From assembly GCA_019915135.1 (NCBI GenBank), contig JAHLMK010000026.1, forward strand, positions 240,001 to 304,000: a stretch of DNA of 64,000 nt, in the 5' to 3' direction. This document shows, piece after piece, positions 17,603 to 51,218 of the stretch. The position numbers and the translations under genes are program-made. Source of the stretch: Strobilurus pachycystidiatus. Its lineage: Eukaryota; Basidiomycota; Agaricomycetes; Agaricales; Physalacriaceae. How positions within the stretch are numbered: position 1 is the stretch's first letter; the number at the start of each line of letters is the position of its first letter. Under the pieces are notes generated by a model that did no database searches, was not told where the DNA came from, and saw nothing but the letters and a program-made list of their open reading frames with translations.

Positions 17603-17631
17603 AGCGCTCGGGAGGGCTGTTGACCCTGGGT

Positions 17632-20774: not shown

Positions 20775-21076
20775 CACCCTATGCAGTACCTGTAACCTGA
20801 TACAAGCCCTATTATACAAAGCATCATATTACACTACAAGCTGTAATCAACAAATGCATCAGAATAGCCTAGTATCATGATACGGGACCTCCTACCATAT
20901 ATAGAATGGGCGGTAGGGCCTACCGGGCGGTACCCGCTCTTGCCGTGATGCCGGTTCAAGCATCAGTTGCCGACACGGGGCCGTTCTCGGATATGCCCGA
21001 GAAATGACGCATCCTGGTCCACGCGTCCCGATCCGGATATACGCCCCGCACCCTTCCGAATATTTGTGCGCCACAC
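20775..21076 (+). repeat. left terminal inverted repeat (302 bp)
   Basis: It begins CACCCTATGCAGTACCTGTA and ends TTTGTGCGCCACAC. Its reverse complement matches 50917-51218 with no difference that I could see. A 60-codon frame inside the repeat is therefore present twice and is probably not a gene. Confidence 0.95.
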
Positions 21077-21191
21077 GCTACTCAAGAGCGCTTGCCTACA
21101 CCACAATCCCTCGTGCCACCAATGGATGCCGGATCATTATGTGCTGAATCCGAATATGTATGCTCCACATCCGAATATAAATGCGCCACAC
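21056..21191 (+). repeat. subterminal 21-bp repeats (3 copies)
   Basis: A 21-bp unit reading CCGAATAT, three variable bases, TGC, G or T, then CCACAY occurs at 21056-21076 (inner end of the TIR). It recurs at 21150-21170 and 21171-21191. Subterminal repeats are the usual binding sites of large-element transposases; that role is inferred here. Confidence 0.7.
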
Positions 21192-21759
21192 CCTGCTTGT
21201 GAGCACTTCCTGCCCCGCCCCTCTGCTATACAAGCATGCTGCCACTGAATGAGCTCTGTCTGTCATGGCCCGAGCGCCACCTATAGCAGCCAGATGATCT
21301 GTATTCCTATATCCGGACACGCTCCCGGCCTGCCCCGCATTGCATTGCAATCTTCAACATATCCGTCCGTCTGGCTTCACATTTTGTCATCACAAGTACG
21401 CCGTACATACATACAGTAACTGGCAGCTCAACATTTGCGCTCGTCTGTCCAGTGCGTATGTGCAGATCACCTCATTTCCATATTTGGACATACCGTTCAT
21501 TGTGCGCCAATCGTGCCCATTCTTTCTGCCAGCGCTTCTGCCAGGCACACCAAGCACTGTCCGCTACACATGATTCTCAATGAATTGTATTGTCCGAAAT
21601 CTGTCTCGCAAATTTGCGTCCACACTGGCACCCATAGGTTCAGTGGCCCCGATTCCCGATAGGGTACATTACCAAATACGGATGAGCGTCGCGAGTACTT
21701 ACTGTAGGTCAAATCCTTAGAGAGGATGATTCTTAGGATACATTTTATTCATATTGAGA
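21192..21759. other. left subterminal non-coding region
   Basis: No gene was seen. Scattered ATATCCG and CCGAATAT-like words occur, as on the other side of the element. Confidence 0.45.
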
Positions 21760-24700
21760 CTATTCTTCAACTACATCCAGATCATCTTCATTGTCATCCG
21801 CGTGTTCTTCTTCCTCCACCTCAACATGCACTACACGGGATACTGGAAGCCCGTCCAGCAGCTCCTGACCCAGCGCACGCACACCCATCCACCGAGTCTC
21901 CAGATTATCTGCTTCCCTGTCTTGCAGGTACGCTTGTTCGGCTGCAAATGCCCGGACACCCTGCTGACACGCGGCGTCCATTTCGGGATGCTCCTCGGCG
22001 CCACAATTGCGCCACCAGGCAGCATTCCACCGGCGGTACACAACAACCCGACGCATCTCTTCAACGAGAAGAGCAACCTCCTCTTGCCACCGCAATTTAC
22101 GTGCACGCGCCTTGCACCACTCGATCTTCAGAGCTATCCGGACTGTTAACATACAAACTACATCAATTGAAGTAGACTCACCTTCATGAATAACTGGATC
22201 GTCATTGCGGGTTGCCACACTCAGCGCATCTACTGGCTCAGCGTAGCTGTACCAGACCCACGATAATTGACGTCGGCCCTCGCCACGAGAAACCACAGCA
22301 TCAGCAGTCGAGGGACCGGCAATCACCTCGTCAATGATGCCCTGTTCACCGAGTACCTGCCGTTCGGCCAGCTCTTCTGCTGTAAGCAGTCTCTCGTTCA
22401 TCCCCCTGACGTCAGCGTCATTCAAGACCCGTAGTTCCCTTTCCCATGTTCCGTGTCCTCTGAGTTGAAAGAGAGCATTGCGAGCCCATCGATATCGAAG
22501 TTTGCTGAGATAGATGGATACTTGGATTTTTTGTTGGACTCCCTCCGCCCGCGTGGTCGGATTCTGCCCGGTAACATTCCGAACTGTGAACAGATGCCCG
22601 GCTGAGCGTGTTCGCAGACCCTGGCGAAGTGACTCCAACGCATCCCGGCATTCTGCTTCCCGAAGCCAACTTTCGCCGTCGACTAAACCAGGCACGCATG
22701 CACGAGGAAGTACACGATCGGCCGCGCGTAGCTCTGATGGCAGGAACAACTTCGTCTCCTCGGGGAGCATAGACTCCGGTGAGTCAAGCACCTTCCTCTG
22801 GTCATCAGTCAGGAACTCTCGGAACATGGGCATGAACGAGATCTGCAATCGACGAAACTTTCTAATGTCACGAAGGATGACATTACGCTGGCGCTCTATG
22901 TTGAGCTCCTGGTAAGTGACCGTCCCGGACCGCCGGATCTTGACTTCCTACGCGAGTCCCCGTCTAGATGAACAAATCATTCGATGTACGGAATAATCAA
23001 TGCATCTCACTTACTGTTTCTCTTCGATCTCCAGCCCTAACGCGAGGAACAGACTCATACTGGATTCATGTGAGATAGACCCACGCTGCAAACTCGCTTG
23101 CTCTTCCTGCGCGAGTTGGAGTTGGATATCTTTCATTGTCTCTTTGTTTTGGAGCTGAGGCTCATAGGGACAGCGCTGAGAATGATCCCGTTCCCATATC
23201 AGAACCTCCCTCTCCCAAGACCTGACTGTCTCGGCCCCACAAAACGTCAGCATACCTCCGTTGAAGTTGTCGAACTCCTTTGCATGCGCGCGTGCTTCGG
23301 GAATGGCTTCAGCAAGACGATTGAGAAAAACACGTCCTGAACAAACACTCGTAAGTAGCATCGGTCTAATTCTGAGGGCACGCGCACCAAATGACTTGAT
23401 GACACAATAATTATGGGCGCCGAAAACATCATCAAGGGTATCCTTGCGAGCCCCTGGACCCATCATCTTGGTTTGAGCTGCTGCGCGGTTACTCTGAGCC
23501 CAGTTCTCTTCGATGGTTTCCCCGTGTGTTCTTCCAGCCCCGGAAAGGAAGTTAAAAGAGTACAAGGCGTGACATTGCACCTTCATTCAACAGTTAAGTA
23601 GCTAATTGACACATAATGCATGCATGAGATACATACACGATGTGCCCACAGGTGGAACTTGGGCACACAGAACCGCACTCGGTTCGGGTCAAAATTGACA
23701 CGCCACGGCAACGGTAACTGTGCGAGGCGGTCTGGAAAGTGTACTCCCCAAATACACACGATGTCGTAAGATAGCACAATGTTGAGACCAGCGTTCTTAC
23801 CGGCCATTGACACAGCAACTAAGGGATCAACATTGCAGAATCTGATCAGCAATTCAGTTTCTTTGCAGGGAATCAGGATAACGAAAACTTACCGCTCTCC
23901 ACGTTGAAGATCACCCATGCCGTTTGCTCTCCACACCCCGTGTCGCGCGCAAGTGACGCCAGCAACGCCGGTCGTGCGCAAGCCCTTGGCGTTCTTCAGA
24001 TCGGCCAAGAAAGTTGCCTGATTGAAGGATTAGATATAATTCGTCACATCACAAAGCGCGCATCAGCCCAAACCTTGAAGCCTGCACAGCTTGCCATGTC
24101 CTCTTGGCTCACAAATGAGAGAATGTGGCCGTTGTAGGGCGCCTGATGGATGAAAAAACCCCAACCGTCTCCGAGAGGAGGGTCGCGCTCAGTCGAAGAC
24201 ACAATTGCGTTACGGAGGCGGAAATTCGCGTCGATGGCCAAGAATAGTGTATAGATGAACCTGGTGATGAATGTCAGACGAAATAATGATGAGATCAACA
24301 AAGATCACGATTTCTGTCCGGATGCGGACAAGCGGGACACTGGACAGCGAGCTCACCTAACCCTGTCCCTGACACGCCAGTCAACGCGTGCCTGCGACCT
24401 GCGCGCTTCAGCAATTTGATATGCCTCCATTGCCGTACACTGCGAAGGAGGACCTTATACCGATTAGGTGGGCTGGACAGCGCACGATGCTCGGTCATTG
24501 TTTCGAGAGCTTTCCAAAGGTCCCAAGCCGGAAGTTTTCCGAGGGAGTTCAGATTGTGAAACAGGCGAAGAAGGGTGAATGTCAGGGCTGTACGTGGCTC
24601 CAAAGGGGTAGACGGCCACCAAGAACATCTGAGTAATTGCACGTAATGAGGGGCAGCCGTCGAGCAGCCGCAGAAAAAGAGACTGATAGAATGAATTCCG

Positions 24701-25487
24701 TTCACGTGGAGGACAGTGAACAAGCTAGTGGTAGTCGTTCGAAAAGGGCAGCGCACACCAGCTGGGTGGCCCAATTGAACGAAACCACCTAATTCTTTCA
24801 GCGAACATGGCTCAAAATGAACTCCGTTCCATTTCTAGACACATGTGTCAGTGAACCTGCTACAGGCATCAAGTCTGATGAACATACCTCAATCCAATGC
24901 AAGGGTAGCGTCGAGTGCAGCGATACGCAACAATCTCGGCACATCAACCCAGCAGCATTGCACTCGTTCTCGCAGCAACGATACATCGCAGATAATGCGT
25001 CTTCCGCCAAGCAACAGTAACACATCTCCGGTACCCCACTCAAGCCATCAAGCCTCAACACTTCCAATAGATACGAGTCCCTATAGTTGCGCCACGTTCG
25101 CATTGGATTATTCTAACAGAGGGTGAGTGTGTAAATTGCTGCGTGAAATGAAGCACTAACACTGTTTGTATTCCAAGCTTTGATCTCGATCACAACGCCA
25201 TGATCATCCGGTGTCGCGATGGGCTCGGTTTGACTGTCCACGTCTTCGCCAAGCAGGTAAGAAAACCCATCGACCGCGTCCGCAAGCAAGGCGGAGCTCA
25301 AGTCCTCCTGCTCCTCAAAAGGTGGTGCTTCAAATAGGTGAGCAAGTTCCTGAACGCGACGTTCCTTCCAGGTCGCGCGCCGCCCGTCGTCTGATACATG
25401 AAGAGTTAGTGCAGCGGGTCCGCGATCTTCGACGCGTTGAGAGGTAGCGAATACGGGGGCTTTTCCTCTCTTGTTGCGGGAGTGCAT
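21760..25487 (-). CDS. KDZ transposase A with CxC2 domain
   Basis: The predicted enzyme cuts and joins DNA ends of KDZ transposons. From MHSRNKRGKAPVF (25487) the exons give a CxC2 zinc domain (CYCCLAEDALSAMYRCC, CRDCCVSLHSTLPLHWIE, 25010-24890). The family segment GIHSISLFFCGC..LLRCSWWPST..PRTALTF..FH (24700-24560) follows, then ERAG/WRHIKLLKRAGR..GELAVQCPACPHP (24430-24310). Next are FLAIDANFRLRNAIVSSTERDP (24250), LSYDIVCIWG and VPKFHLWAH (23780-23640), then GAGRTHGETIEENWAQSN (23540-23490) and GPGARKDTLDDVFG. The helical C-terminal part has IEWCKARARKLRWQEEV and ends acidic. No internal stop was noticed once introns are removed. The usual GRTDGE is GRTHGE here, a possible loss of one conserved residue. 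Confidence 0.9.
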
Positions 25488-26163
25488 GATAGCGTCAGGA
25501 GGAACAACCGAGGAGGGGATGGTGGTGCTAGCAGACCAGATAGATACTTTTAATACTCACCTTGCTCTGCTCAGAATTCACATGTCCTGTTAGTTATAAT
25601 AGACGCTTGAACGTCGCAAAAATGAGATGACAATTGCGCTAGACGTAGAACCAGTTGGAAAATCAGTGGAAGTTAAGCATGCTTCCAAGCCAACACGGGC
25701 TGATCAAGTCGATTGATACCTCACGTTGGCACTCTGATTTTCAAACGGTACGAGTCCAGCTTTCCAAAATGGTGTATTCACGTCCACCCTATATTTCCCT
25801 ACTTTGTCAAAGTACCTGTACCCTGATAGACATCTATTTGGCAAAGCTTCGCCGGCCGACAGGGTGTCGGTCCACACCCAATTTGCCAAAGTTGCCAATA
25901 ATCCGCTGGAAAGAAATAAAAATTTGGAAAAGAGGTAAATTACTGACCTCAGCAAGACTCGAACGCATGACCTTAATGTATCCTTGTGCACGCCGGCCCA
26001 CTAAGTCATTGGTTACCTGTTCACTGTAATTGCAATGCGCCCATGTCGCCTCTCACCTTCTCTCTCCCAAAAAAATGGAAGGACTAAACATAACATGGTG
26101 CTACTACTTGGTAATGTGATATAAGTAAGGTAATGAAGTAATTAAAGTGTTCCGTTGAGAATA
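25488..26163. other. intergenic between transposases, with tRNA-like sequence
   Basis: No ORF of note was found. The segment at 25935-26020 is tRNA-like on the minus strand (separate entry), and the flanking 25640-25935 may be the body of a SINE. Confidence 0.4.
25935..26020 (-). ncRNA. tRNA-like / SINE-like segment
   Basis: On the minus strand TGACTTAGTGG (26008-25998) matches box A. CGTTCGAGTCT (25965-25955) matches 9 of 11 positions of box B, with the tRNA-like spacing of 32 bp. Arm pairing is imperfect, so this is more likely a tRNA-derived SINE or tRNA pseudogene than a working tRNA. Confidence 0.45.
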
Positions 26164-29100
26164 TCATTCGTCACCTACCATACTTTGGTCGTCGTTGTCT
26201 TCCTCCTCATTCTCGCCACCTTCATCCATCTCATCAACCTCGGCCCACCCATCGTCAAGACTCTCCATATCGACACCTGCACCCGTCCAGCGGCGCACAA
26301 AAGCCGCCAGCAGATCACGCTGGACACTGGCCTGCTGCACCGCATACGCTGTGATTCCCTCCTGCACGTCCGGGGCCAGAGATGTGTCTTCGGCTATCCC
26401 GTGGTCATCCCACCATTTCGCCTTAATTTCCATCGTTACTTGCACGCGCCTCATCTCCTCCTCCAGAAGTTTGACCTCCTCAGTCCAACGCATTGCTCTT
26501 GCTCTGCTTTTCAACCACTCGACCCGAGCCCCTTCGGATTGTGTCAATATTCGCTCACCCCAAAAGGAAAAAACGGACGTCCTAACCTTCAACGACATCA
26601 TCGTCATGTCCAGAAGCACTCCTGTTCGTCCAAAGCCAAGAGAGCTCACGCGAACCGTCACCCCAAGGCAAAAACACGTCAATGGAGAATCCGGAGCCTG
26701 TCATGTTGGAGACGTCCCTATCTTCGAGAGGCCTCAACTCGCCGACCCAATCACCCTCCGGTTCCAGTCGCTCGAGCGCACGCCGACACCGACGATATTT
26801 GTCCACGGCAAACCTTGAGCGTGCGGTTTGCGTGTTGATAGTCCCTTGAGCTCGTGTCACCATCGTCTGACCGACGCTCTCCACATCCCGATAGACGAAT
26901 AAGGCACGTAGCGTTTCCTCGGAGTTTCGAATCGTCTGAAGACAATCATGACACTGGGCGACACGGAGCTGGGCCTCCTTCATCGCTATCCCGGGAAGAC
27001 AACCCGCAAGCCGCGCCTCGGAAGAGAAGGCTGATGGCATCCACAACTTTTGGTCCTCGACATCGATGGCAACCGACCTTGCGACCGTGTTTGTGCTGAT
27101 TTTGGCGCGTGCCCCGGGCATGTACACTTCCTGGCTTGTTCGAAACAGGGCTATCCGTTTCGCGAGATCCACTCGTTTCTTCTGAATGGCAGTTGCCTGA
27201 GCAGGCGTCAAAACGCCTTCACCGTCGGTAAGTCGCCTCAGCTTTTGCCTGCAAGCCCGTGTTAATATCACTCCCAGCCCACGCGGTGAAGTATACGCAC
27301 TGGAGTTCCTCGATCATCAAGCCGAGGGTCAGACAACCAGTCGGACTGGTGTCATCCAGCGCGCCGGCTCCAGACGCCGCTTCGAGTCGTTCTTCCTCCC
27401 GTAGGCGGTAGCGAACCTGTCCCTCTGTTTCGTCTATATTATGGAACGGTTAGTACTCCAAGATTGTCTAAAAAGGGATAGTACTTACGAATGACATCGT
27501 TCACATAAGGGTTGGGTTGGTCTCCATCGCGTTCCCACATCTCGATTTGCTCTGTCCACTTCCGCACAACATCAGGAGGGAGATGAGCTGTGAAGTCCGC
27601 GTGGAGGTTTCTTTGCTTCACTGCTTGCGCCTTGGCCTTGATATAACGCCGCATGAACGACTCACCTGGAACCCAGTTCAGACAAATCATTCGCAGTACA
27701 AAGAAAAGACGTACCGAGACCTATAAGTTTACACCAGTTCAAAAAGCCAAAATGGTCGTCGAGGGTGTCCGCGCGCGATCCAGGTCCCATCTCTTTGATA
27801 CTAGCGGCACACATTCTGATAAGCGCCCAAACACGCTCAATCGCTTCGCCATCTGTACGCCCGACCCCTCGCTGAATCGCCATAGCGAATCTGACTTGAC
27901 ACCCGTACTTGTGACCGGGACAGTGGCCCTTTGGGATCGCGGCAAGAATCTCCATTGTGGCGGGGAGTTGGAGGTGTTCTGGGAGCTCTTTCATGCGCTC
28001 GAAGAGGTTGATAATCCATTGACAGACGATGTCATATGAGAACAGAACTTGTAGAAGGGCGTGTAGTTTCTTGAGGGAGGACATCGCGACGTAGTCAGAA
28101 TTGCAGTACCTGGTAAACTACCTTGATTAACAACGCCTCGAAAGAAAGAGATTTAAGCGTACCGTTCACCCTTCTGCAAATTTCCTACTCCTTCCGGCGC
28201 TACCATCTCATGTCGTGCGCAAATCGCGGCGACCACACCTGTTGTCCGCAGTCCAGAGTTATCCTTCTTGTCGGCATGAGCTAGGGCCTTGAAGCCGCTG
28301 CACGTCGACATCTAATGGGACATAGTAAGCAACGCACGCGAATGACTCCGAAAACGCTTACATCTGCCTCGGTAGCATGCTCGAGAATGTGCTGAGCGTA
28401 GCCGGAATCTTCGTCTATCATGTACGCGCCACTGGGATGGAGTGATGGGTCGACCGTCTGGTTGGAACGATGCAATCCGATGAACCGGAAGCAGGCATCC
28501 ATGGCAACGATCTTTCGATAGAGATACCTGCGACGGGACGAAAAGGTCAGCCAAGTGAAGAGCAGAGAACGCATTAGACTCACTGGTCGGTCCGCGTCTT
28601 CCAATCGGGCGGCAAGTTGACCTCGGGTATTGGACAAGCTGGGCATACAATGGCCAACTCGCCAGGCTCCACTCGCGAAGCACCATTTGTCTGGCTCCCC
28701 TTCCCTGCCCGCATGAGCATCATAAGATGGCGATATTGCCGAATCACCCGCAGGAAGGGTTGATAACGCTTCTATCGAGTGAAGTCAACAAATCGAACTA
28801 ATACCGAACTAATACGATGTTCGCAACTTTCACTAACCTTTGGCACCCTCAATCCGAGCGCGTCGGTCAAGTAAACCAGGGACTTGTAGAAATTGTAGGC
28901 GGAAGTTTTCCCGGTGAGCGTCGCGGCATGAAAAAGTTGGAGCGCCTCAAAGCTGACGCAAGTGGCGGGAAGATGCACAGTGGCCGGATACCACCCCATG
29001 CGAAGGAGTTGTCTGCGGCGGGGGATATTTGACGCATGGAGGCAGTTACAGTATTTCACGGATACCTCATGGAGACCATTGTCGTGAATGACAACGAGGA

Positions 29101-29922
29101 TATGTGGATCGACGAGCTGCATGATGCATTGGGAGTTGTCGGCATGGCCAAGTTCCACGTGGAGACCTAGTCGAATAAGAGCTATCGGTATGAAGCGTGA
29201 GCCAATCCACTCCTACGAAAGGGTAAGCTGAGGCAGAGTTAGCAAAAAGACAGACAAACTTCGACGATGTGCAGCGGTTGGCGGACATGATCGCGAACGA
29301 TACAATCTTGACATCGCAGACGGTGGCGAGAGCATCGTGTACAACGAAACAGTCGGGCTGTAGGAGCGTGGCCGCAGCTACACTTCCTCGGAGCGTCTCC
29401 GCGGCCTTTATGCCAGAGAAATTCGTATAGAAACTCCTGGGCGTAAGCGTATCCGCCAACCCGGCCGGCCCAGACATCCATAGCGCGTTTCTAAAAGGTA
29501 AGGAATGTGAATCGACTATCTATATGCAGAGCAGAGAGCGGACATACCTTGCCTTTCAGTGGAGGCTCTTTGGCGCGTACCTTCTTAGCAGTCCCAGCAA
29601 CGTCGTCGCCGAATTCCTCCACAATGGGACCAGAGGGCGGCGATGGGGGATCGAGGTATTGCAGCACAATATCGGTGCTCAAATCATCGTCGTCTCGCCA
29701 GTCGTCCTCCCCGGCGTCGACATCACTGCTACAGGACGGTCCTGCAGTGCACTCTAACTCTCCGTCCTCGTCTAGACCCAATATCTCCGTGGCCATCCCC
29801 ACGTCACCTTCGGAAAGCTGGGAGCTGCAGGAACTTCGTCGGCGATGCCTCCGGCGCCTCGTTGCAGGCAGGGAAAAGGTATTGTTCTTCCTCTTCTTGG
29901 CGGTGGGTTTTCGCCCGTTCAT
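26164..29922 (-). CDS. KDZ transposase B with CxC2 domain
   Basis: A second, different KDZ transposase starts MNGRKPTAKKRKNN (29922) and has an acidic leader. Its CxC2 domain reads RKCSCGHAPTARLFRCTRC, CQDCIVRDHVRQPLHIVE (29390-29270). It continues GLHEVSVKYCNC, LLRMGWYPATVHLPATCVSF and ALQLFHAATLTGKTSAYNFY (29080-28880), then GELAIVCPACPIPEVNLPPDW, RKIVAMDACFRF (28510) and FSYDIVCQWI (28040). The conserved RGVGRTDGEAIERVWA lies at about 27870-27820, then GPGSRADTLDDHFGFLNW. The C-terminal region has VEWLKSRARAMRWTEEVKLL and IKAKWWDDHG. No lesion was noticed. It keeps GRTDGE, unlike transposase A, so it is the better candidate for the active enzyme. Confidence 0.92.
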
Positions 29923-30200
29923 CCTATCACATAGAGCGGCACAGACCGCAGGGTAGAGGACGGAAATGGCTCTTGTTGAGTAAGGAGTGGAGCAAGGCAA
30001 GAAGCGCGGAAAGCCTGAAAGAAGGAGGGGGCCACCGTGTCAGTGGCAAAGCGGTAAAGGTGAAGAGAGAGCCGTACTTGGGCCAAACGTAACGGTACTG
30101 GCATTACGTTCGGCTACGTCCAAACCGAACAGCGATGATATAAATGCAGCGGGGAGGATGAGTGTGAGCGAGAAGTCCCTTCGCGCTATTCAATCCACCC

Positions 30201-30810
30201 ATGAACGCTGAACAGTACAACGAGTATGTTGCACGGCTGGACGCTGAGGCTGCTGCGCGGGAGGACGTGTTGGAATATCGTCGCACCATCCTGTCTCTTC
30301 CGTCAGTTGCAACCACTCGCTTTGTTATGCCCCAAACTCACCTGTTTGCCAGAGACGACGCGCCGGGCGATGATACCACCTATCCCACCTTCTTCACTAC
30401 CCACGAATACCTTATCTGGTACCCCTTCACCGAAGACCACTACGCCCATCTGAAAGAGAGCTTTGGCGAGTTTGAGAAGGCGGTGCTCAAGAACGACGCC
30501 CAGAACTGGCTGCGCAGCTACTTTCCTCGCTGGTTCAAGAAGTTTCCCGAGGATCCGACTGGCAGTTGTGATGCAGACGACCTCGCCATGAACATGAAGC
30601 ACCGTAAGAAGGTACGTTGTCTTCTCGCGCCTCCGGGACTACGGGTCGACCGCGGTTTTGTAGACAATCTTGAAGATTTATATCAACGTGTTATCGCGCC
30701 ATTGGAATGGGGAAGGTCGGCCTAGCGGGAAGAACGGGCGGTTGGACGTCATGATGGTCCACTTCGACATATTGCACGAGTTGGTAGAACACTTCCGTAC
30801 CTTTTTCTGA
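30201..30810 (+). CDS. unrecognised FFTTH-family protein, copy 1
   Basis: Starts MNAEQYNEYVARLDAEAAAR, then YPTFFTTHEYLIWYPFTED, SFGEFEKAVLKNDAQ, NMKHRKK. After an intron (GTACGT...TTTGTAG) it continues TILKIYINVLSRHWNGEG and ends DILHELVEHFRTFF. It is paralogous to the gene at 37862-38479, with the same intron position after HRKK and the same HWNGEGRP motif. The function is unknown. It starts 280 bp from, and divergently to, KDZ transposase B, so the two may share a promoter. Confidence 0.8.
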
Positions 30811-31104
30811 TGTAATCTTGATTTGATGGCCGATGCCGATGCCAAAGAATATTCTTACAAGTCCTCTTTGAGTCCACGTCGTCAAGAAATTACAATAAAT
30901 AGAAGTATCAGACTTTGAGAAATTACAGTTTGGAACTATCAAGTAGATAAGACGATCGACAACTGGAGAGAGAGAGTATATAACAGGGGAAGAAAATTCA
31001 TCAAGATACATGTGTACATCAACAACAAGAAAGAGAGTATATTAGTATAACTTTGGAAAAAGTTGGGAAAAAGCGTCAAAAAAAACAAATGTGGCAGGGC
31101 CAAG

Positions 31105-32764
31105 CTACCTCTCTTGATGCTTGCCAAGTACTTCGTCAAAACACCGGTTCAAAAGCTCGCCCGCCTCGACCGGCTGGTCGACCAGACTTCGGACGAGTGC
31201 CCTGTCCATAAGGGGGTCAACATGGACGCGGTGGGCGAGGTCACGGAAGAATGAGTTTCCAATCACCTTGACACTCTCCTCGTCAATGGAATCATCCTCG
31301 TCACCGACAGCGGGGGCGTCTACGCGAACCTTGTATTTGGTGGTGGACCCAGTCGAATTCATCGCCGCCTGCACCTGAATATCCCACTCCTCGTCCAGCG
31401 CAAAACCATACTCGGACGGCGTAGAAGGTGGCCCAAATGGAGCATGGCGCTCGACAAAGTAGGGACTGCTATGAACGACGAAGGACTCTTCCGAAGGAGG
31501 CGATGCGTCGCGTCCGAAAGTCTCGTTGATGGAGGCACGATGCTGGCGATCTTCTTCTTCAAGTCGATGCCACTCGTCCTCCCAACCAGAGACAATGGCA
31601 CTCTCGCGCCAACGCAGCTGATCACGCCGAGATCTAAGCTCCTCGGCGAGGGCCTCGTTGAATTCGTTGGCGGCATTCTCGAGGCGGTCCAGACCATTGA
31701 AAACGACGTTCGGTTCGGCATCAACGGGAGCCATCTCTTCAGCGAGAGCCGTACAGGACGCGGTAACGGACGCACGAGGCAGAGCTCTCTGCAAGGAGGC
31801 GGAGAGAGCCTCGAGATGAATAGAGCCGGTGACTTGAGAGGTGGAGTTACGAGGAGGAATGAGTGGAGCCGCCGCTCGCTCAGCAAGCTGAGCCTCCCGA
31901 GCGCAGGCAGCGATCTGGGCGCCAATTCCCTCGCTGACTGCCTTGAACCAATCCTCCCGCCCTGCGGGAAGCCGCATCGAGTCACGGGCGATAACCATAC
32001 CTGGACGCTCAGGCGCTAAGTAAGGACCGGGTGGACGGCGAGGTTCATGGGGTCCGCGGGGCGTCTGACCGCCACGGGTGCGAGGAGTAAGTTCGTCGAG
32101 AGGCATAGGACGGTCCTGGCGGACCATGTGGAAATCCGGCGGAGGGAGTGGGGCGGGCTTGTCCAGACCCCAGCGAGCACGGCGGCGCAAGTGCCAGTAG
32201 TGGATAACTTCGATAGCAGCCTGGTAAATGAGACCGCGCATCAGGCAAAGTCCCTCCAGAAAGACAAAGGAATCAACGTACTCGCTTACGATGCCTCAAC
32301 GCGTAGTCTTGAGCGGGTCCCCGAGGAATCGGGAACCGGCATTGCAAGTCGTTAGCTATCTCCTCCTCAACCGAGGCGAGCTCGGCGCCTGTCCCGCTAT
32401 CGAACAAAGAGGCCCACTTCGGACTCCAGTTCACCAGAACGCGCAACTCTGGGGGCTCAAAGCGCTGCCAAAGACAATAAATGACATGCGATTAGCGGGC
32501 GGAAAACACGACGTACACTATGGCCGCGCATGAACAGCTGAGAGGGCTGCGTAGACGAACAAAGGAGAGGTTAAGTGTAGAACGCGATGGGAAGTACAAG
32601 ATACGCACGAGGTCGACAATTGGGAGCTGGATGATGCTATCGCCGGGGCGGACCTCCTTCCTCATGCGTTCATACCGCCTGAACTCTTCCAGGCGCATTG
32701 GAAGGATTTGCGTCGGGTCTTGATGAGCCTTGACATCGCTAGACGGGCGCAGAACATATACCAT
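31105..32764 (-). CDS. unrecognised disordered protein, about 480 aa
   Basis: Exon 1 starts MVYVLRPSSDVKAHQDPTQI and ends SIIQLPIVDLV. Exon 2 reads RFEPPELRVLVNWSPKWASL to ALRHRKR. Exon 3 runs from AAIEVIHYWHLRRRARWGL to LLNRCFDEVLGKHQER. The long last exon is Pro-, Arg- and Glu-rich with probable coiled-coil stretches (ANEFNEALAEELRSRRDQL). No domain was recognised. Part of the giant transposon cargo. Confidence 0.68.
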
Positions 32765-32872
32765 GACGGGCGTTGAGAGAGAAACAAGTCGACGAACAGG
32801 ATGATTGCGCAGGGGAAAGATGGGCGGATGAATCAAGTCGGTCGAAGATCAATCACTTATTAGAAGAATAAC

Positions 32873-40112: not shown

Positions 40113-40571
40113 GGTATCGTGAATTCGAATGAAGCGACGAAGACTGAGGCAATGTAATTTATAAGACGGCGATGGAAGCGAATAGATTTATATTTATACG
40201 ACGGTCGACGCATAGATGGCCGAGAGATAGAGAGAACCGAAATGGACCAAGGAAGAAGATGCGTCTAAATCACCTTGACAGTCAATTGACAGTTGCACAA
40301 TTACGAGAATGAGTACTCTGAACGCGAATTCTAACGCGTCCAGCTCAATTGAAACAAAACAAAACAAATAGCATTCCTCGCGGCGGGAGAACAACAACAA
40401 CATACTACGACTACATACAAGAAGAAAAGCGACTACGCTACATCAGACAACGATACACAACAAGCACGCTACTAAACTAATCAAACACGCTACGCAACGA
40501 AGATATCACATGAAGAACTTGTATGACAGTGAGCCACGATGGAAACAAAAACCCCGCCGAGCACATAGCCC
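40113..40571. other. no gene seen
   Basis: AT-rich spacer between two minus-strand genes. A short CAATTGACAG-type repeat occurs at about 40270-40290. It probably contains 3' flank of the following gene. Confidence 0.4.
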
Positions 40572-41532
40572 TCACGGGAGGAAATACGCAGAACCGGTAT
40601 TGAGAGCCGCTTCAACTTCTTCGCGGCCCTTCTGGATGGTGAGAACACCGTTGTAAGTGGCACCGCTGACTCCCGTGACGTGGGGCGAAGTGCTGTTCCT
40701 AAGAAGGGAGGGTAATGCGTCAGTGTCGTCTTGGGAGACGGAGGCCAAGCACCAACCAACCGGCCGTAACACCAACAACGCCGCGTCCGCGGGTGACCGC
40801 GTAATATGGGCCCGGCGTCCCGGGAGCGGGTACTTCGTAGTTGAAGTTGGGGGGCAGAACCGCGTACGGTGGGTCTGTCATGATAGATGGTGAGTTTAGA
40901 AAGAGACTTCAGCGCAAGTAAGGAATACGAACATGTAAGGGCGACCGGGGTCGCAGGCTGGACGGGCTGGACGGGCGCAGCGACGGGCGCAGCGACGGGC
41001 GCAGCGACTGGCTGGGCGACTGGCTGGACGACTGGCTGGACGACGGGGGCCGCAACAGGCGGGGCGATCGGCGCAACGGGCTGGGCAACAGGCGCAACGG
41101 GTTGGGCGACGGGCGCAGCGGGTTGGGCGACGGGGGCAGCAACAGGCTGGGGGGGGGCTGAATTGACATAAGTCACTAAACTAGATATCTCGTAAATTAG
41201 GACGAGAACTTACCAGACTGAACATGCGCGCCAACATTGGACTGGCCGCCAGCTGTGTTGACACCTAGGTCGGAGATATCAGGAGATATGCAAAGTGGGG
41301 AAAGCGAAAGAAACACGTACCTGACCCTCCCGGGACAGAGGTTGCGGACGCGACTAGAGTGTTCAGCAAGTCGGCCTGGCCCGGCGCCAAACTGACAGCA
41401 AGCAGACGCTGCGCCAGATCTGGGCGACGCGATCAGTCAGTGGTCGGAGAAGAGGCGTAAGGCAAGGCGGTTCATACCCAAAAGATCACTGGCGTCGATG
41501 GGAGCAGGGGTTTGCGGCTTGCGTTCGACCAT
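40572..41532 (-). CDS. Pro/Ala-repeat protein with RNase H1 N-terminal (HBD/viroplasmin) domain
   Basis: Starts MVERKPQTPAPIDASDLL, with several short exons (DLAQRLLAVSLAPGQADLL; VNTAGGQSNVGAHVQS). A low-complexity region made of PVAQP and PVAAP units lies at 41160-40945. The last exons read PPYAVLPPNFNYEVPAPGTP, YYAVTRGRGVVGVTAGW, then HVTGVSGATYNGVLTIQKGR, EEVEAAL. The YYAVTRGR..G(V)..W....VTGVSGA.Y...T...EA pattern is the hybrid-binding domain of RNase H1 N-termini and caulimovirus-type viroplasmin domains. It binds RNA/DNA hybrids in known members. A catalytic RNase H domain is absent. Confidence 0.7.
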
Positions 41533-41855
41533 TGTCACTGGGAGATGATGGGAGGCGAAAGAGGGAGAGACAAGGAGCATTGTGGACGGAGAATCGACGT
41601 TAAATACGAGAACCGTGGGTATGACTATACAGTCGCGGCGTATTGGGTTCAAGTTGGAGATTGCCGTGACTGGTGGCGTGGATTTCGTCGAAGGCCCCAG
41701 GCCGAAATTACTCAGCAAGTCCCCGCAACCCACAGACAGGACGCTAAGGAACGGCGCTGTAGGCGCGAAGACTGTGGCGCGAAGACTGTGATGGCAAGAG
41801 AAAAAGAAAAGAGAGGTGCCGGGTATGTTTTTCCACGATCAAACATGTGTTGTGA
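41533..41855. promoter_or_regulatory. divergent intergenic region
   Basis: The HBD gene starts leftward at 41532 and the large AT-hook gene rightward at about 41856, so both probably use this 320-bp interval for initiation. A first small exon of the rightward gene may lie at about 41791. Confidence 0.4.
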
Positions 41856-44800
41856 TTGACGTACGGCATCAGGCACACTGACGACGACGTTCTTTCCGAC
41901 CAATCATCTGACGACGAGGACGACGAGGACGAGCGACCCACGGCCAATGGCGACGAAGACGACGAGGAAGAGCTGCCCAAGCTGATACCTTGGAGAAAAG
42001 GCTGGCTCAAAGGCGACGCCCTAGAGTACGCCCTGACTCATCGCGACAAATTCCACGAACAGAACGCTCTTGACCACAAGCTCGGCTGCGCCTATGTGAC
42101 GCGGGTTGCGAACGATATGTTGCGCGAATTCGGAACCTTTGGACCCTGGGGCGCGTCGTCGAAGGCTCTCGAAGACCGTACCGACTACTGCTCCACCGAT
42201 GACGAGGAAGAGGTTGAAGGGAAGAAAGCCCCCCCCGAGGGCGAGACTGTGCAGGCCCGAGACGCTCGCCTACTCAAGGTGGCCGAAATCCAGCGCTTCC
42301 GAAAGGTGCGTTCCGCTTCGTGTTCTTTAACGAGCAATCTAACATAACTCATGTTAGAGCCTCACTGGCTGGTTCAAATACGAATACAAGCTCAGTCATG
42401 GCGATACAACGCGCAGCCGGGGTCGCCCCAAGAAACGAAAGAAAGACGCCGCGACATCGAGCGCAAACGACGACTCGCCTGAGTCGCTTGCTTCTCTTCT
42501 GGTCCATGAATTGCTCGGACTTGGCCAGAACTCCACCCGCGTCCCCCATCCTTGCCAACTCTATGCCAAGGATCAACCTCCCGCTTTCCGTCAGCAATTT
42601 CTCTCCCGCTTTAAGAAGTCTGGCAAGCCGGCGAAGGACAGGGTGGGAGATGAGATGGCTTGGGCGGCTGCTCGATTTCGCGCCGAACCAGAGGGCGTTC
42701 AGACGGAATATCAGAGAAAGGCTGAGATTTTGAAGGAGGAGGCAGCCGTGCGGCGGGAACGATTGGTGGAGAAGGTTCATTCGCGTCTTGATCCTGAGGA
42801 TGCCGACGAGTGAGTTATTCCCTTCTTCTCGTCATTTCCTTTGCCTTTTTTTCCTGACCTCGACATGTCAGGTTGCTCAACGATCTTCCGTATCTTCTGG
42901 ACCCGTTCTTCAACTCTCTCAGCGAAATGCTTAATTGCAAGATAAGCTTTCTGATGGGTGTTCCGCAACCGAAGGACAACGGCAAATTAATTGTTAAAGC
43001 GTTCGTATTTCCTCTTCGCTATCACGGGTTTCCCTTCACTGACCTTATCACGATCATACAGTATCACGAAGGGTCGCAATCACCATCCAGTTCCCGTGAA
43101 TTTCGAGAAGACGCCGCACTTCGGTATCCACATCAAGGGATTTCAGGACTTCCTGAAAGATAATGCCTACAGTGTGTATTGTTGTGTGGCATCGCGGTTC
43201 TTCCGGCTGACCTACTTGTGCAGAGAAAGAAGAGCTTCGTGCGGCCGCCATCCCCAACCACAAGCCATCTTCGTCCCCCAAGAAGGTGCCCCAGTACGAC
43301 GCAGACAAGATCGTCATCATTGTGCAGTCAATGGAGCTTCCAACCGGGGCCAAAGGCTCGGCGCGTCGAGATGGTCAGGAGGAAGACGAAGATGAAGATG
43401 GGGAGGAACCGCCTAAGGGATTAGCAGGGCGCCTTCAACGCAGAAATGAGCGTGACGCTAAGCGAAAACGCCGTGAAGAAGAAGGTTCTCCCGTCAAACG
43501 TCCTAGAGGTCGTCCGCGGAAGGAGAGAAAGGGGAAGCGCGCTGGTGACGAGGAGGAAGACGACGACGACGACGACATGGAGGAACCCAGGGATCGTGCT
43601 GGTAAAGAGAAGCGTGGCGGTGATGACGAGGAAGACGAGGAAGATGACGATGACAGGGCTGAGAAGGACAGGCCTCGAAAGCGTCAGAAGAAGTCTTTTC
43701 CTGAACCCAAGCCAAAGAAGATTCGCGCGCAGGCGAAAGCCAACGCCCGACCCCCCCAAGGAGACACTTCGATTGGCAACGTCACCACCAGCCGGCCGAC
43801 AGCGAAGGCCTCAATGGGAGCGTCAAGGGAGCAGCTACGAGCTTTGGCCCGTCGACTCGATGATCGATCCCCCTCGCCGGTCTTTGATGCACCCCCGCCG
43901 CGCAAGAGAGCTAAAACGACCTCACAATCGAATCGTGCTTCTCGCAGCGCTATGACACCAGCATCCGCCGAATCATTCACTTCGCAGACGAGCCGGCCAA
44001 AACCCAAGCGGCGATCTAGACCAGCTCCCATATCTCTCTCTCCGCCAGCACCAACGTTGCCCACTTCGCCCCGCCCGAATCCTTTTTCCCCGGTTGATAC
44101 GCGACTCCCTGCGGACGATGTGTCTCCGCTGGTTACACTCGCCAAGAAACGGCGCCGGAGAGTCATCGCCGAAGAGGAGGATGAGGAAGGGGAGGACCAG
44201 GCGGTGACAAGTCCGTCAACGCCGGGCAGAGATGAGGCAGGAGATGAGCAAGGAGACGATATGTCTCCGATGATTACACTCGCCAAGCGCAAGGAACGGC
44301 GCCTGGGAGTCATTGCCGAAGAGGAGGATGCGGAAGCAGAAGACCAGGCGGTGACAAGCCCGTCAACGCCGGGCAGGGATGAGGGCAGAGATGAGGGCAG
44401 AGATGAGGCAGGAGACGATCAGGAGAAAGGGAAGGCGAAACACGTTCCCTCCCCAGAGGATGAAGGCGATCCATTCGACTTCCAGGACTATCCAGACAAC
44501 CCCTTTGACAACTTCCACGACGATGCGTTCAATATCGATCCTGAAGATCAAATGGAGCAGGAGGTGGCCGCGGCGAGGGCAAGTGCACTGCCGGGAGACT
44601 CTCAACGGCGGTCTGGTGCTCGGCGAACCTCCGCCGGAGAACTTGTTGCGCCTCAGAGGCGGAAGGCGCTCGCAGTCTCAACACCACGGGTCCATCGGTC
44701 CCAGCCGAAACGGTTCGCGACTCCGCGTGTCGCTGATGAGCAACGCGTTCCACCAACCTCCGTTCCAACACTAGCACGCCCCTCAGTCGCACCGGCAGCT

Positions 44801-45487
44801 CGCGCACAGCGTATCCCGCCCACCGGCCAACGCCGCCCTGGCACCGTGGTCGTCTCGACAAAACCACCCTCTACGCGAGCGGCTATGGCGGCGGCGAGGG
44901 CTTCCGCACCACCCCACCCACTCCCTCCTCCCTTCAACCCCCTGGATCCGACGTTGTGGACGGACTGGGTGCAAACTTGCCACGCAAATATCAAGAATCT
45001 TGAGGTGGCAGAATATCAGACCTTGATCGTCTTGTGGCTCCGCGTCGAAGGCCTCAGCAAATTCGAGGTCGGGCAGTACAGCCTCCCAGCACGTCATCGA
45101 CCCGCACAAGTGGGCAGCTGGCAGAAGGCGAAAAGGAAGATTGTTCCGTCTTTGCCGCGGAAGGACGTGGGCAGTTTTGCAGCCGAATTCTGGGCATGGT
45201 GGAAGTCCATGCAGCCAGCTTGGAGGAATGTCGACGACGTGGCTGGGCCGTTGACGTCCGATCATCGCACGACAAACAATCGTGAGCGTCAATGGGGGAT
45301 ATTGCAGGACGCCAATGGTCGGAATGGGATGATATCGGTGATTGCGTGCCTGTACTGGTGGGGCCTTCACCATCATACGGGTGTTGAGCGCTTGCCGTCT
45401 GGGCTTATTGAGCAGTGGGAGGATGCAGTAGCGGACGTGGCGTTTGTTTTGAATGGTCTGTTGACGGCCGTCTCATTGATACCGTGA
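41856..45487 (+). CDS. large AT-hook protein of the split-gene family
   Basis: An acidic start (HTDDDVLSDQSSDDED) is followed by WRKGWLKGDALEYALTHRDK and QNALDHKLGCAYVTRVAND. After introns it reads WFKYEYKLSHGDTTRSRGRP, CQLYAKDQPPAFRQQFLSRF, EMAWAAARFRAEPEGVQTEY, then LNCKISFLMGVPQPKDNG, FEKTPHFGIHIKGFQDFLKD. A very long disordered exon from 43286 has the AT-hook KRPRGRPRKERKGK, acidic runs and two copies of an internal repeat around SPLVTLAKKRRRRVIAEEED and SPMITLAKRKERRLGVIAEE. A folded C-terminal domain ends it (DPTLWTDWVQTCHANIKNLE, FWAWWKSMQPAWRN, CLYWWGLHHH). That domain recurs in the gene ending at 50166. Minor-groove DNA binding by the AT-hook is the only role that can be suggested. 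Confidence 0.75.
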
Positions 45488-46495
45488 GTCGTCTCGCAGC
45501 GTCTCGCGGTTCCTTTTCTTTTTGTTGTTGGGCATTGTACTACCTAATGTAGTATCTTGACTTTGAACTACATAATGTAGTATCCAACTTAAACTACAAT
45601 AATGTAGTTCTGTAATTGACGACAGTTGTAAGTACTTGGGCCTGGACTTGAATGAAAATAGTTGGCATCCGGAGGCGAATCTGGGCCCTCGGCCGGTTTG
45701 CCGTGAGTCCCGGGTAGCCTAGGCCTTCGGACCCTTGACCCGAGCTCCGAGCTCGGGGGTTCAAGACTCGCATGCTGCATTTCTGAAAACACATTTTCTA
45801 CCTGTCCTGGATGGTGGCAGGTAGTTTTCTCGGACTCAATGAGGAGAAAAATGATAAGGAGGCCTGACCAAAGCTGACAGTAGAGATATATATAATAACA
45901 ACAGAGCATTGTCCATTAATCAGTATTTTGACAAACATTTGTTTTGCAAGTGCCGTTGAAAATGAAGTAGTGGCCACTGGCACTGAACGTCTGAGTGGAG
46001 AGACAGCTAAGTATATCCAATTGATAAGAATAAAAGTACTATCCACCGCTACGGTGAAGTACTGTCCACCGGCTAAAACTTTGTCAAAATTTCAATTTCT
46101 GAGGGGTCCCGGAGCAATTGACTGATACAGGTAATACGGAAGTGTTGATACAGGTCTAGGTTGATGCAGAGCCTTATTAGATATATTTAGAGAATTCCAG
46201 CATACTGTATAGAACCCCTACATATATAACAAGGGACCCTGTGCCGGCTGGCCTAACTTTGACAAATAATTGTCTGTCCTTGGACATGCTTATTTGACAA
46301 AAAAGGTATTTATGGGCTGTCACGTCTCATGTTGTGCATGCCCTGCGCATGCCAAGGGACGGTTAGCATGTGTGCCAGGTAAACGATGTGGTACACAGAT
46401 GACCGCGAGAACAAAAGTCGGCAGATGATCATGATAAGTCTGATAACCGGCCGTCCGCTTTGCCTCCACTCCCCCATCACCTCCCACTTCGACGG
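45488..46495. other. spacer with three small palindromes
   Basis: CTACCTAATGTAGT (45539), CTACATAATGTAGT (45568) and CTACAATAATGTAGT (45594) are three closely spaced imperfect palindromes just after the stop of the preceding gene. The rest is AT-rich without a supported gene. Confidence 0.5.
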
Positions 46496-47410: not shown

Positions 47411-50166
47411 ATGCCAAAACCCAAAGCCTCTAAGAAAAAGCCCGGCCCCAAGTCGTGGATTTTTGGCACGAAGGAGGAATTCTTCGCATCGGAGAAGGAC
47501 GACTGGGCCGTATCCTGTAAAGCCAAAACCAACCTGCAGTGGTCGCGATGTATGGCGGTTCGTTACTACATTGCCTACAAAGACCTACCGCCAAAGGCAA
47601 GTCTCTGTTCTCCGACCTTCCGTCCCACACTAACTCCAATATAGGAAGACCTCGAAGAGGTGCCGCCGATGCCCAATGCGAGCCAAATTGCCGACTGGGA
47701 GAAGAACTTTGCGGAGGAATTGTCTGCTCTACCTGACGATCAAGCGGCGGAACGAGAGGCGAAAGTTGCGGATATGGCGAAGGTGCGTACCAAATCGTTC
47801 AACTTGCCAATGCATTAACATTACCTGTAGACCATTCTCGGCTGGTATCGACACAAGTTCGGCAAGTCCAAGAGCCAGAAGGACGAATCTGTTCTGGAGG
47901 GCATGTTCACGGAACTGAGTTTGCGCAAGGAGAAACCACGCCGAGCCCAGGTCATCCAGATGTACACAAATGTCAACTGGGACAACGGCTTGAAGACGGC
48001 CGTCAAAACCGAGCACGACGCTGTAGTTGCTGCAGCCGATGCCGCCCACGCCAAGGCCCTCACACTTGATCCTAAAGCCATTCGGACCGAGCCCGAAACC
48101 TTCCTATCTGTTCAGCGGCGCATCGTCACCGCCTTGTGGGAGAAGGAGTCGACGGAGGTGCGCGAGAACATGAAGCGCCTCGTCGACGAGAAACTGGCCC
48201 AGGATATCGACAACTACGAGGCAACAAAGGCGGCGACACTATCTCCCGCCAAGTATCAACAGTGAGTCTTGAATCTGTTCTCTTGGCGACATCGATTAAC
48301 AACTTCATAGTGCTCTCGAAAAGGGTGCAGCTTACTTGCAGCGCGTGGCTGATACGGTCTCGGCTCATATGGGCAAGGCCTGCAGCATTATATTGTGCGG
48401 CCCCATTGCGGACCGTGGTGGGCGTATCGAGTGTCGAGGGTACGTCTGTCATTGCTTTCACTTGCGGACACGCTAACATTTTTTCCTTCAGAATTCACTC
48501 TGGCAAGACTTTCGCTACGGGAGTCAAATGGAACGTCGACGACGCCGATGGATACCAGCAAGTAGAGAACTGTATGATCAAGTTCGCGCAAAAAGTCTTT
48601 AGTATGTTCTTGGTTTTGATTCTTGAGCCAAAAAATTGACACGAATATCCAGCGGACGCAGACATAGCTAGTCGTGCTATGGGGTCTTTCGGCGACGTTG
48701 ACGACGGCTCACTCGGCACCGTTGACGACACGTCGGCGGGCATCCTCTCAAGCCCGCAAACCAATTCTCATGAGCCCGTTCCCGGTGCATCTGTTCCTGC
48801 TCCCGCTCCTGCTCCCGCTCCCGCTCCCATTGATCCTGCTTCTGCTCCGGCCGCTCCCGCTCCCGCTCCCGCTTCCATGGCGCCTGTGTCCGCTACACCA
48901 ATGTCGACTCGGAAGCTCAACAATGAGTTCACTGCCCTCCTCGCCCTCCTTCCGGAGGATTGTCGTGCCGACTGCATCAGGGAACTGAATCGAATGTCGA
49001 CTTATGAATTCGATCGCGAAATGAACATCGCGTATGGCCATGCTCGGCTGGTCGCAATCATGCCCGACTCCCCACTGAACCAGACGTCTATGTTGTACAG
49101 GTATCTGCCAAAGGGAACGAAGAACCCATGGCACACAATGCTTTTTGGCGAGGGCGAGGATGACAATCGGGATGAGGATGACGACAGCGACGATACGGAT
49201 CTTCGAGCAGAGGATGGCGTACTCACCGGTGCAATCCCGCCCAAGGTTGCGGAACCGCCGTCTCCCGATGAAGGTGATGCAAATACGGCCGGACCCATCC
49301 TCGGCGCCCCTACCGTTGACGATCTGTCGCCCATCGTCACCGCGCCCATCGTCACCGCGCCCACCGTTACCGCGCCCACCATCTCCGAGCCCGCTGTCAG
49401 CGCACCCACCGTCGCATCCGCCGTCATCGCATCCACCATCACGGCACCAGCGCCCGTCACCAACAGGAGTGATGCTGCACCTCCTCCTGTTAGCTCTCTG
49501 GCTGACATGGATGTCGATGAAATCCTTCAAGTGGATGTTGCCGATCTTGATTGGAATAACGTGGACCAGTCCAAGTTCTGGCCCGAGCTCAAGCAGGCAT
49601 TACGGGCCTTCAGACGGGGGACAGCTTGGGGCACCGCGTGGATTGCCTTGATTGATTCACTTCTAGTCTTCGAGGAGAAGGCTTCATTTCTAGATGATGG
49701 CAAGATCAAGTTAGGCACCGAGCACCGTCCGCCAGTCGTTGCGGAGTTCATGCGGCAGCGCCGTAACTGGTCGAAGAAGTGGTCGGTCGGCGATCTCGAT
49801 GTTTTCGTTCCTTCCTTCTGGGAATGGTGGCGCTCACTTCAACCCTCCGGTCGCATTCAAGGTACCGAGCTCACAAAACCGGATTTTGTGGATTGGGACG
49901 GTCTCCAAGATAAGTCGGGTAGGAACGGGATTACCCTTGTCATTGGGGTCTTGCTTTGGTGGGGGGAGACGGTTTCGGAACTCACGGATGTGGCGGCTTC
50001 AGCACGGCGCGAAGATTGGTTGCTCGCTGTCACGGATGTTACCTGGGCATTGGATAACATGATACGCAACGCCAATTTCCGGAAAGTGACAAACTCGACG
50101 TCGCAGAAGCGCCCTGAGCCAGAGTCGGACAAGGAGAATCTCAGGCCAACTAAGGTAATAGTGTGA
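47411..50166 (+). CDS. large disordered protein of the split-gene family
   Basis: Starts MPKPKASKKKPGPKSWIFGT. Its introns include a GC-AG one (47597-47644, GCAAGT...ATAG) that keeps phase. Segments include TILGWYRHKFGKSKSQKDES, VIQMYTNVNWDNGLKTAVKT, FLSVQRRIVTALWEKESTEV, GKTFATGVKWNVDDADGYQQ and VENCMIKFAQKVF. These align with pieces of the host gene split by the transposon (KQPHAYHLFHHQNWEAGLQL, EFVQRIFRELSEDE, FPEWMGEAKMSAFI). A long Pro/Ala/Val/Thr low-complexity region (48780-49480) follows. The C-terminal domain (DLDWNNVDQSKFWPELKQAL, FVPSFWEWWRSLQPSGR, GVLLWWGETV) is shared with the gene ending at 45487. Function unknown. Confidence 0.78.
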
Positions 50167-50916
50167 ATTCACTCTCATTTGTTTTTCGTTGCTGATTTCG
50201 TCCTGCGTAGCGATTGCGGTCCACTTAGCCTTTTCACCGGCGACTTTGAGGGCCGTCTCGGACTTTTTTTCTATGCATTACTTTTTGCCTTATAACTACA
50301 TCCGCGCGCATCCAGCGCATTTACTGAGCTATGGACTTTTCCTATAGGTAGAATTAGATCTTAACTACTACATGAATCTATGCACTATGTTCCCGCCTGC
50401 ACGCCGCTCGAGGACGGCGGCATTTGCGCATTGAGCATTGATTTCACCAAGTGGACAGCACAGCCACAGAAAGGCTCTAATCTGTGTTGAGATGATTTCG
50501 GCACTCTGGGATATGAACAAGAATCATATTGCAACCGATTCTACTCTCAGAAAATATGCTACATTGACGGTAGAGCTGATATGAGAAAATGCAAAAGAAA
50601 TATTGCCCGGGATCAAACCGTCGCCCTGTGGCGATATCACGTGGCACTGCCAGGAAGGCTAGTACTAGTAGTATCCGGCTAAGGTATCTCATGGGCAGGT
50701 GCGGGCAAAGTGCGGATATGTACATGATTGAGAGCTGTGAGACAGTGAATGGGTAATGGAATAGGTGGGACCGGGCCAACAGATGTATCCGAATTAAGAA
50801 CTGATTCAATCATTCAGTTGAAATGACCGCGTGGGCAGCGCCGGCGTCATTATCACGATATGACGAGGTAGCAGCAGATGCGGAAAGCGCTGAATGCTAA
50901 CAGTGATGCAGTGGCA
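50167..50916. other. right subterminal non-coding region
   Basis: No supported gene. It lies between the last cargo gene and the right TIR. Confidence 0.5.
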
Positions 50917-51218
50917 GTGTGGCGCACAAATATTCGGAAGGGTGCGGGGCGTATATCCGGATCGGGACGCGTGGACCAGGATGCGTCATTTCTCGGGCAT
51001 ATCCGAGAACGGCCCCGTGTCGGCAACTGATGCTTGAACCGGCATCACGGCAAGAGCGGGTACCGCCCGGTAGGCCCTACCGCCCATTCTATATATGGTA
51101 GGAGGTCCCGTATCATGATACTAGGCTATTCTGATGCATTTGTTGATTACAGCTTGTAGTGTAATATGATGCTTTGTATAATAGGGCTTGTATCAGGTTA
51201 CAGGTACTGCATAGGGTG
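50917..51218 (-). repeat. right terminal inverted repeat (302 bp)
   Basis: Reverse complement of 20775-21076, ending GTACTGCATAGGGTG. No mismatch was noticed on reading. Confidence 0.95.

Follow-up and report, generated by a model that had tools for sequence, protein, structure and literature searches.

The unit examined here carries two KDZ transposase genes and a gene for a TET/JBP-like dioxygenase between a single pair of long inverted repeats, which raises the question of how a mobile locus of this size is put together. It lies in the genome of the agaric Strobilurus pachycystidiatus, in a window of 64,000 nt (positions 240,001 to 304,000 of contig JAHLMK010000026.1, abbreviated C26:240001-304000) on a 458-kb contig of an assembly comprising 51.8 Mb in 61 contigs; plain coordinates below refer to this window and prefixed ones to whole contigs. 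The KDZ class of element is already known, and Kyakuja elements are characterized by 7-bp target duplications and CA..TG termini (Kojima 2025, PMC12730594); according to the available part of the same paper, complete transposon structures were unknown from earlier work. A preliminary description of the window, made from the sequence alone, had proposed a single, unusually large mobile unit. We find instead, with a probability of about 93%, that the 30,444-bp unit consists of two nested KDZ (Kyakuja-like) transposons, a 9.9-kb outer element holding a 20.5-kb inner one, and that the outer element splits a likely cargo gene of a third KDZ element. Nesting of one KDZ element in another thus accounts for the large size, the presence of two transposases and the paralogous genes; the structure is settled by relatives that searches with internal DNA and proteins brought up. 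A very large two-transposase KDZ locus can hence form when one complete element inserts into another.

The whole unit spans 20775-51218 and is closed by terminal inverted repeats (TIRs) at 20775-21076 (plus strand) and 50917-51218 (minus strand). They are perfect over exactly 302 nt (302/302 identical), in keeping with both the repeat length and the young-looking copy proposed earlier. Two details of the borders changed: the start and the delimited nature of the insertion were right, with the end at 51218 and not 51217, and the flanking duplication is present with a length of 7 bp, not 8. Its copies, TACCAGT at 20768-20774 and 51219-51225, directly flank the CACCC...GGGTG termini. Minus its insert, the outer element measures 9,902 bp and contains the transposase gene KDZ-B (21760-25487, minus) and a gene for an 822-residue protein (47411-50166, plus), for which gene models and relatives in uninterrupted outer-type elements are available. 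The insert sits after base 5,010 of the outer element, between these two genes. A genome search for inverted TIR pairs 20-40 kb apart, suggested by the preliminary description, produced no second copy: the full 302-bp TIR matched the 51.8-Mb assembly twice, at the unit's own ends, with no close copy elsewhere, and its terminal 23 nt gave no further genome copy with up to three mismatches allowed. Neither search detects distantly related ends; those of the C26 relative described below, for example, are 70% alike over the first 76 nt.

A second element with its own CA..TG ends, its own 7-bp duplication and its own transposase occupies 25785-46319 (20,535 bp), which contradicts the notion of a single mobile unit. 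We located its ends by means of the end sequences of an inner-type element on contig C9. The left end (25785-25865, plus), an imperfect inverted repeat, starts with CACCCTATATTTC; the right end (46236-46319, minus) closes with TATTTATGGGCTG, and copies of TCACGTC lie directly outside, at 25778-25784 and 46320-46326. An alignment starting at the first base of both ends shows them to be 68% alike over 85 columns. Their end-anchored inverted-repeat score of 29 was reached by none of 1,980 random pairs of 100-nt stretches from the window (maximum 22). The sequence CACCCYATATTTC occurs three times genome-wide, at the inner end in the window, at the C9 end and at an end on C7, compared with two occurrences for the same sequence read backwards. 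The terminal 13 nt of the right end recur unchanged in a third relative, on C4, and the C4 counterpart of the left end is similar.

The domain content of the transposases places both elements, by sequence, in the KDZ superfamily. With the KDZ transposase domain (PF18758; cut-off 26.6 bits), the 1,032-residue model of KDZ-A, the inner transposase (26101-29922, minus), matched over positions 1-217 of 217 at 190.6 bits, and CxC2 over 2-107 of 107. KDZ-B contains CxC2 positions 1-104 of 107 in the open reading frame (ORF) at 24295-24834, and its KDZ domain is complete (1-217 of 217, 137.3 bits) in a spliced piece, compared with 57.2 bits for the bare ORF. A full KDZ domain is therefore readable in both genes, as anticipated, and both carry a cysteine cluster of the CxC2 type. 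Among the six elements delimited in this genome, the 7-bp duplication is perfect in all six and so are the CA..TG termini; for the C4 element both features were search conditions, with the alignment of its ends giving the same positions. By these two features, both elements appear Kyakuja-like. An 8-bp duplication, the feature of Zisupton and Dileera, was considered and rejected: the eighth base agrees in one of the six elements, namely at the outer ends, where it does so because the outer element's last base is G. No Pfam match to a tyrosine-recombinase captain was obtained in 20 ORFs and four gene models, a scan that did not cover every possible exon.

DNA searches with both arms of the outer element recovered relatives at C26:38-46 kb and two on C20. 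The former proved to be a complete element, C26:36810-46972 (10,163 bp), with 494-bp inverted ends and the duplication GACTCGT. The block containing its transposase lies 2.0 kb from the block containing the 822-residue gene, compared with 22.5 kb in the window; the extra spacing, 20.49 kb, compares with 20,542 bp for the inner element and one copy of its duplication together. After removal of the insert by script, the window has a junction-spanning distance of 647 nt versus 674 nt in the C26 relative, and of 767 nt versus 746 nt in one C20 relative (C20:102901-105700; this comparison covers one of the two). On this sequence evidence, the C26 relative and this C20 relative are without an insert at that point. 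As a separate observation, the C26 element looks recent, its 494-bp ends differing at one base.

The converse evidence comes from inner-type elements that stand free. One occupies C9:318170-334913 (16,744 bp, duplication CAGCGCT) and another C7:1416029-1433224 (17,196 bp, duplication AGGTACG); their end sequences are identical over 124 and 172 bp (100%), while their flanks and duplications differ. A third, C4:2960829-2977524 (16,696 bp, duplication GTAATAT), was delimited by a border search that demanded CA..TG and 7 bp and gave one solution in the two stretches read; its ends can be aligned with those of the inner element from the first base on, which gives the same positions as that sole solution. 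Identical C9 and C7 ends in different flanks, together with the bordered C4 element, indicate that the inner type has moved, and as far as sequence can tell it is mobile in its own right.

Both sides of the outer element belong to one gene. Its 5' part lies at 51226-52260 and its 3' part at 19551-20774 (both minus), with relatives in the genome; rejoining the flanks yields an uninterrupted frame and a 604-residue, seven-exon model with a score of 64, compared with 31 and 25 for the halves alone. Of 35 loci with relatives of this target gene, 27 have a KDZ transposase gene no more than 15 kb away. At 25 of these 27 the two genes are divergent, a result independent of any uniform expectation, and 24 of the 25 are separated by 7.3-10.1 kb. 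A listed KDZ match lies within 10 kb of 24 of the 35 target-like loci, for which a uniform expectation of 4.6% is an unfair control, as repeats cluster. Since its relatives adjoin KDZ genes, mostly divergently, the split gene most likely belongs to the cargo of a third KDZ element or family rather than being an ordinary host gene. These counts were compiled from match listings for KDZ, TET-like and target-like loci: 121 KDZ positions (of 174 matches, some unlisted; where a gene matched in two pieces, the second was mostly dropped), 71 of 77 TET-like matches (the other six being second pieces) and 35 target-like loci from 86 matches (after removal of additional exons at the same locus and of matches in the window itself).

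By sequence comparison, nesting of one KDZ element in another is not unique to the window. The C7 element interrupts a gene for a KDZ transposase: its flanks match residues 446-496 and 490-521 of KDZ-A consecutively, and the genome-wide KDZ matches include two domain parts on opposite sides of it, making C7 a second nest. Three of the four elements with judged flanks (outer, inner, C7 and C9) sit in KDZ material, which for the outer element we infer from its target gene; in the C9 flanks, the proteins tried revealed none. The available flanks of the C4 element and the C26 relative were too short for such a judgement.

Several points weigh against the nested reading or its individual parts. Around the insertion point the sequence of the relatives is too diverged for base-by-base alignment, and the argument is one of spacing; the C20 relative moreover has about 470 nt extra slightly further on. 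All gene models come from a home-made finder, and the spliced KDZ-B piece uses one GTATGT...AAG intron chosen by hand, with the N-terminal exons of that gene unsettled. The reading of the C9, C7, C4 and C26 elements covers their ends and some of their genes. As the inner ends are only 68% alike, the age of the inner element is unreadable from them. The window contains no KDZ partner of the target gene itself; the nearest listed match, C26:311347, lies outside it at a distance of about 19 kb from the end of the gene, in the expected orientation and with a stop inside the match. Finally, the TIR and 23-nt searches of the assembly found no second copy of the composite.

How the two elements came to be nested allows two histories. 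In both, each transposase would act on the CA..TG ends of its own element by cut-and-paste, and a 7-bp staggered cut at insertion would yield the 7-bp duplications. In the first history, to which we give about an even chance, the outer element landed in the target gene, the inner one followed later, and the composite never moved. The perfect inner duplication agrees with such an order of events, as does the habit of KDZ elements here to land in KDZ genes, exemplified by the C7 copy; against it, the second event would be confined to the short time since the outer landing, during which 0 of 302 TIR positions changed. In the second, somewhat less probable history, the nesting took place at another site, and KDZ-B afterwards carried the pair into the target gene as a 30.4-kb unit. 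Given intact, identical outer ends, KDZ-B alone could move the whole 30.4 kb, and these ends are complete around an insert in which, as in KDZ-B, a full KDZ domain can be read. The lack of a second composite in the searches above speaks against this history, as does the length of 30 kb, large beside the Cryptococcus KDZ elements of about 9-11 kb that have been shown to jump, according to the available passages of PMC12810828.

A single giant KDZ transposon, moving as one unit with two transposases and all cargo, is very improbable: although the outer ends alone are long and identical and the two large cargo genes have a common domain, the inner ends with their own duplication, the uninterrupted relative C26:36810-46972 and the free-standing inner types on C9, C7 and C4 rule it out for practical purposes. 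Least probable of all is an assembly artefact joining two places: a long inverted repeat could confuse an assembler, but both duplication pairs match, the flanks rejoin an open 604-residue gene model and the window lies within a 458-kb contig.

Apart from KDZ-A and the TET/JBP-like gene, the inner element contains five other predicted genes. A small gene adjoins KDZ-A (30201-30815, plus), followed by a gene of no assigned function for a 469-residue protein (31105-32698, minus) with relatives in inner-type elements. The dioxygenase gene (33729-35378, minus; 498-residue model) has beside it a small gene (36003-36682, minus; 187-residue model) that is conserved next to TET at C6:1184k. A gene for a 316-residue protein (37862-39291, plus) and a large gene (41545-45602, plus; 1,227-residue model) complete the set. 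Three weak models within the 30.4-kb unit, 39623-40025, 40572-41580 and 48677-49508 (all minus), were excluded from the gene list. The proposed paralogous proteins are borne out by two pairs: the products of the 30201 and 37862 genes share 39% identity, and the inner 1,227-residue and outer 822-residue proteins 29%, with a common C-terminal domain. The HBD proteins claimed for the cargo were not recovered, as the scanned cargo ORFs and four gene models gave no Pfam match above cut-off except for the transposases. For the 469-residue protein, one homologue beyond this genome, a metagenomic one, was found among 7,994 candidates scored.

Four of these genes, a KDZ transposase, the small gene, the 469-residue gene and the large gene, form a backbone found by protein and DNA matches at no fewer than seven loci: the window, C2:1387-1423k, C3:2099-2113k, C3:2122-2137k and the C4, C9 and C7 elements. 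Loci with only some backbone genes (on C1, C3, C7 and C28) were left out of the count. Order and orientation agree at six of the seven; the exception is C2, where a different KDZ gene is present in inverted orientation. TET matches occur at two of the seven, the window and C2, so the middle part holding TET would be variably filled: TET, the 36003 gene and the second small-gene paralogue probably fill a place that other elements fill differently. The C2 locus (C2:1370001-1440000) is a broken-up relative of the cargo at 29975-45492, with DNA pieces 67-94% identical (most 73-87%), stop codons in its TET gene and the different, oppositely oriented KDZ gene; no ends of its own were found in that stretch. 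Compared with this broken copy, the 469-residue gene has a ratio of nonsynonymous to synonymous substitution rates (dN/dS) of 0.35 over 300 codons. Around the nearest TET relative, C6:1164001-1204000, no TIRs were detected, and this region shares with the element no more than the TET gene and its small neighbour. At C1:2114921-2118725, a relative of the 37862 gene adjoins a KDZ-A-like gene, the place held in the window by the 30201 gene; given this arrangement, two KDZ lineages may have mixed in the inner element itself.

A TET/JBP-like cargo gene, as the preliminary description had it, is present and lies inside the inner element. Its Pfam Tet_JBP score of 24.3 bits is below the cut-off of 34.9, a curated threshold and not a catalytic feature. 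A fold search was needed because neither a profile of the TET family nor the single sequence gave a TET match among PDB sequences; the predicted fold resembles TET enzymes. H56, D58, H109 and R120 are invariant in all 13 aligned sequences, from loci chosen among the 77 matches; we take the first three (HxD...H) to be the iron ligands and R120 the 2-oxoglutarate-binding arginine. By predicted fold and catalytic residues, the enzyme is TET-like. The equivalents of CcTet Asp337 and Gly331, which concern specificity for 5-methylcytosine or N6-methyladenine, would be Cys and Asn in the window by ungapped counting from HxD. The most alike named proteins are from Mucidula mucida (72-83% over aligned parts, among 120 listed of 2,214 homologues). 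Against its relatives, synonymous sites are saturated in all five window pairs (proportions of differing synonymous and nonsynonymous sites, pS 0.79-0.86 and pN 0.15-0.21), and dN/dS between two further loci, L021 and L022, is 0.06. A listed KDZ match lies within 10 kb of 23 of 71 TET-like loci, against a uniform expectation of 4.6% that is unfair here for the reason given above. Two pairs of TET-like loci are observations in their own right: L016 and L017 (C6:1182861-, C40:1321-) have 3.5-kb stretches 99.9% alike with a tandem array of 178-bp period, and L019 and L020 (C1:6296601 and 6306779) are separated by 10.2 kb and have 2,449 identical bp in common. TET has been proposed to help transposons escape methylation silencing (Kojima 2025, PMC12730594, in the part available); judging from such published work, the oxygenase would counter silencing of the element by oxidising the methylated bases on it.

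The points of interest are the conserved backbone of several genes, in which a TET part is optional, and the possibility of composite movement under the outer ends. In its strongest form, which we regard as rather unlikely, the Kyakuja-like elements here would be conserved-backbone multi-gene machines with a TET/JBP cassette swapped in a central slot, capturing one another by nesting, and the 30.4-kb composite would jump under the outer ends; if true, a demethylation-like enzyme spreads as the passenger of a passenger. Bordered TET-bearing and TET-free versions in one genome turn the question of a TET contribution to an element's spread into a comparison of relatives.

Several known systems resemble the locus. 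TET/JBP genes were reportedly found by Iyer et al. 2014 (PNAS) to be dispersed with KDZ elements and further proteins; those systems share the TET/JBP and KDZ association, which is one of genes there and of bordered elements here. The TET-containing Kyakuja of Agaricomycetes share with ours the KDZ transposase, 7-bp duplications, CA..TG termini, a TET/JBP protein with HxD and an agaric host, as far as the available text goes (PMC12730594). The two Laccaria Kyakuja families are described there without TIRs, whereas the outer element here has TIRs of 302 bp and its relative of 494 bp, combining long near-perfect inverted repeats with Kyakuja-type 7-bp duplications; also unlike them, the ends of the inner element are imperfect, and its additional genes are found again in related elements. 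The words "nested", "composite" and "HMG" are absent from the main text of that paper, and among the literature listed we found no publication on a nested KDZ composite, supplements and most subscription papers being outside that search. According to the passages available, KDZ1-KDZ3 of Cryptococcus neoformans are active, measure about 9.2-11 kb and have 139-241-bp TIRs, much like our 9.9-kb outer element, and likewise combine a KDZ transposase with a cysteine cluster (PMC12810828). In the same passages their duplications are 8 bp (KDZ1) or 4-8 bp (KDZ2 and KDZ3) compared with 7 bp here, their cluster is CxC1 compared with CxC2, and TET/JBP is unmentioned. Starships, as described in the sources available, are also large fungal elements with cargo, but are tyrosine-recombinase elements of Pezizomycotina (Ascomycota), in contrast to the KDZ transposases and inverted repeats here.

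The surroundings of the split gene contain further mobile-element sequences. About 0.6 kb from its 3' end, 15362-18999 encodes a reverse transcriptase with RNase H (RVT_1) that by eye resembles elements without long terminal repeats. Next to this, 13360-15364 is a long palindromic repeat, similar to a miniature inverted-repeat transposable element, interrupted by a 462-bp sequence that C2:1390001-1440000 contains in five further copies (89-97%). On the right-hand side of the target gene lie exons of a protein kinase domain (Pkinase, 54707-55415) and, at 58971-61668, a multi-exon model that by eye resembles a hAT transposase and contains two ORFs without a Pfam match. Tandem arrays with a unit of about 20 bp occupy 594-1119 and 2077-2754. 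Elsewhere in the genome, the KDZ loci L005, L006 and L007 (C1:5442449-, C1:5455791- and C6:458817-) are alike over 3.78 kb at 100% and 99.97%, which by sequence marks them as another recently copied KDZ family.

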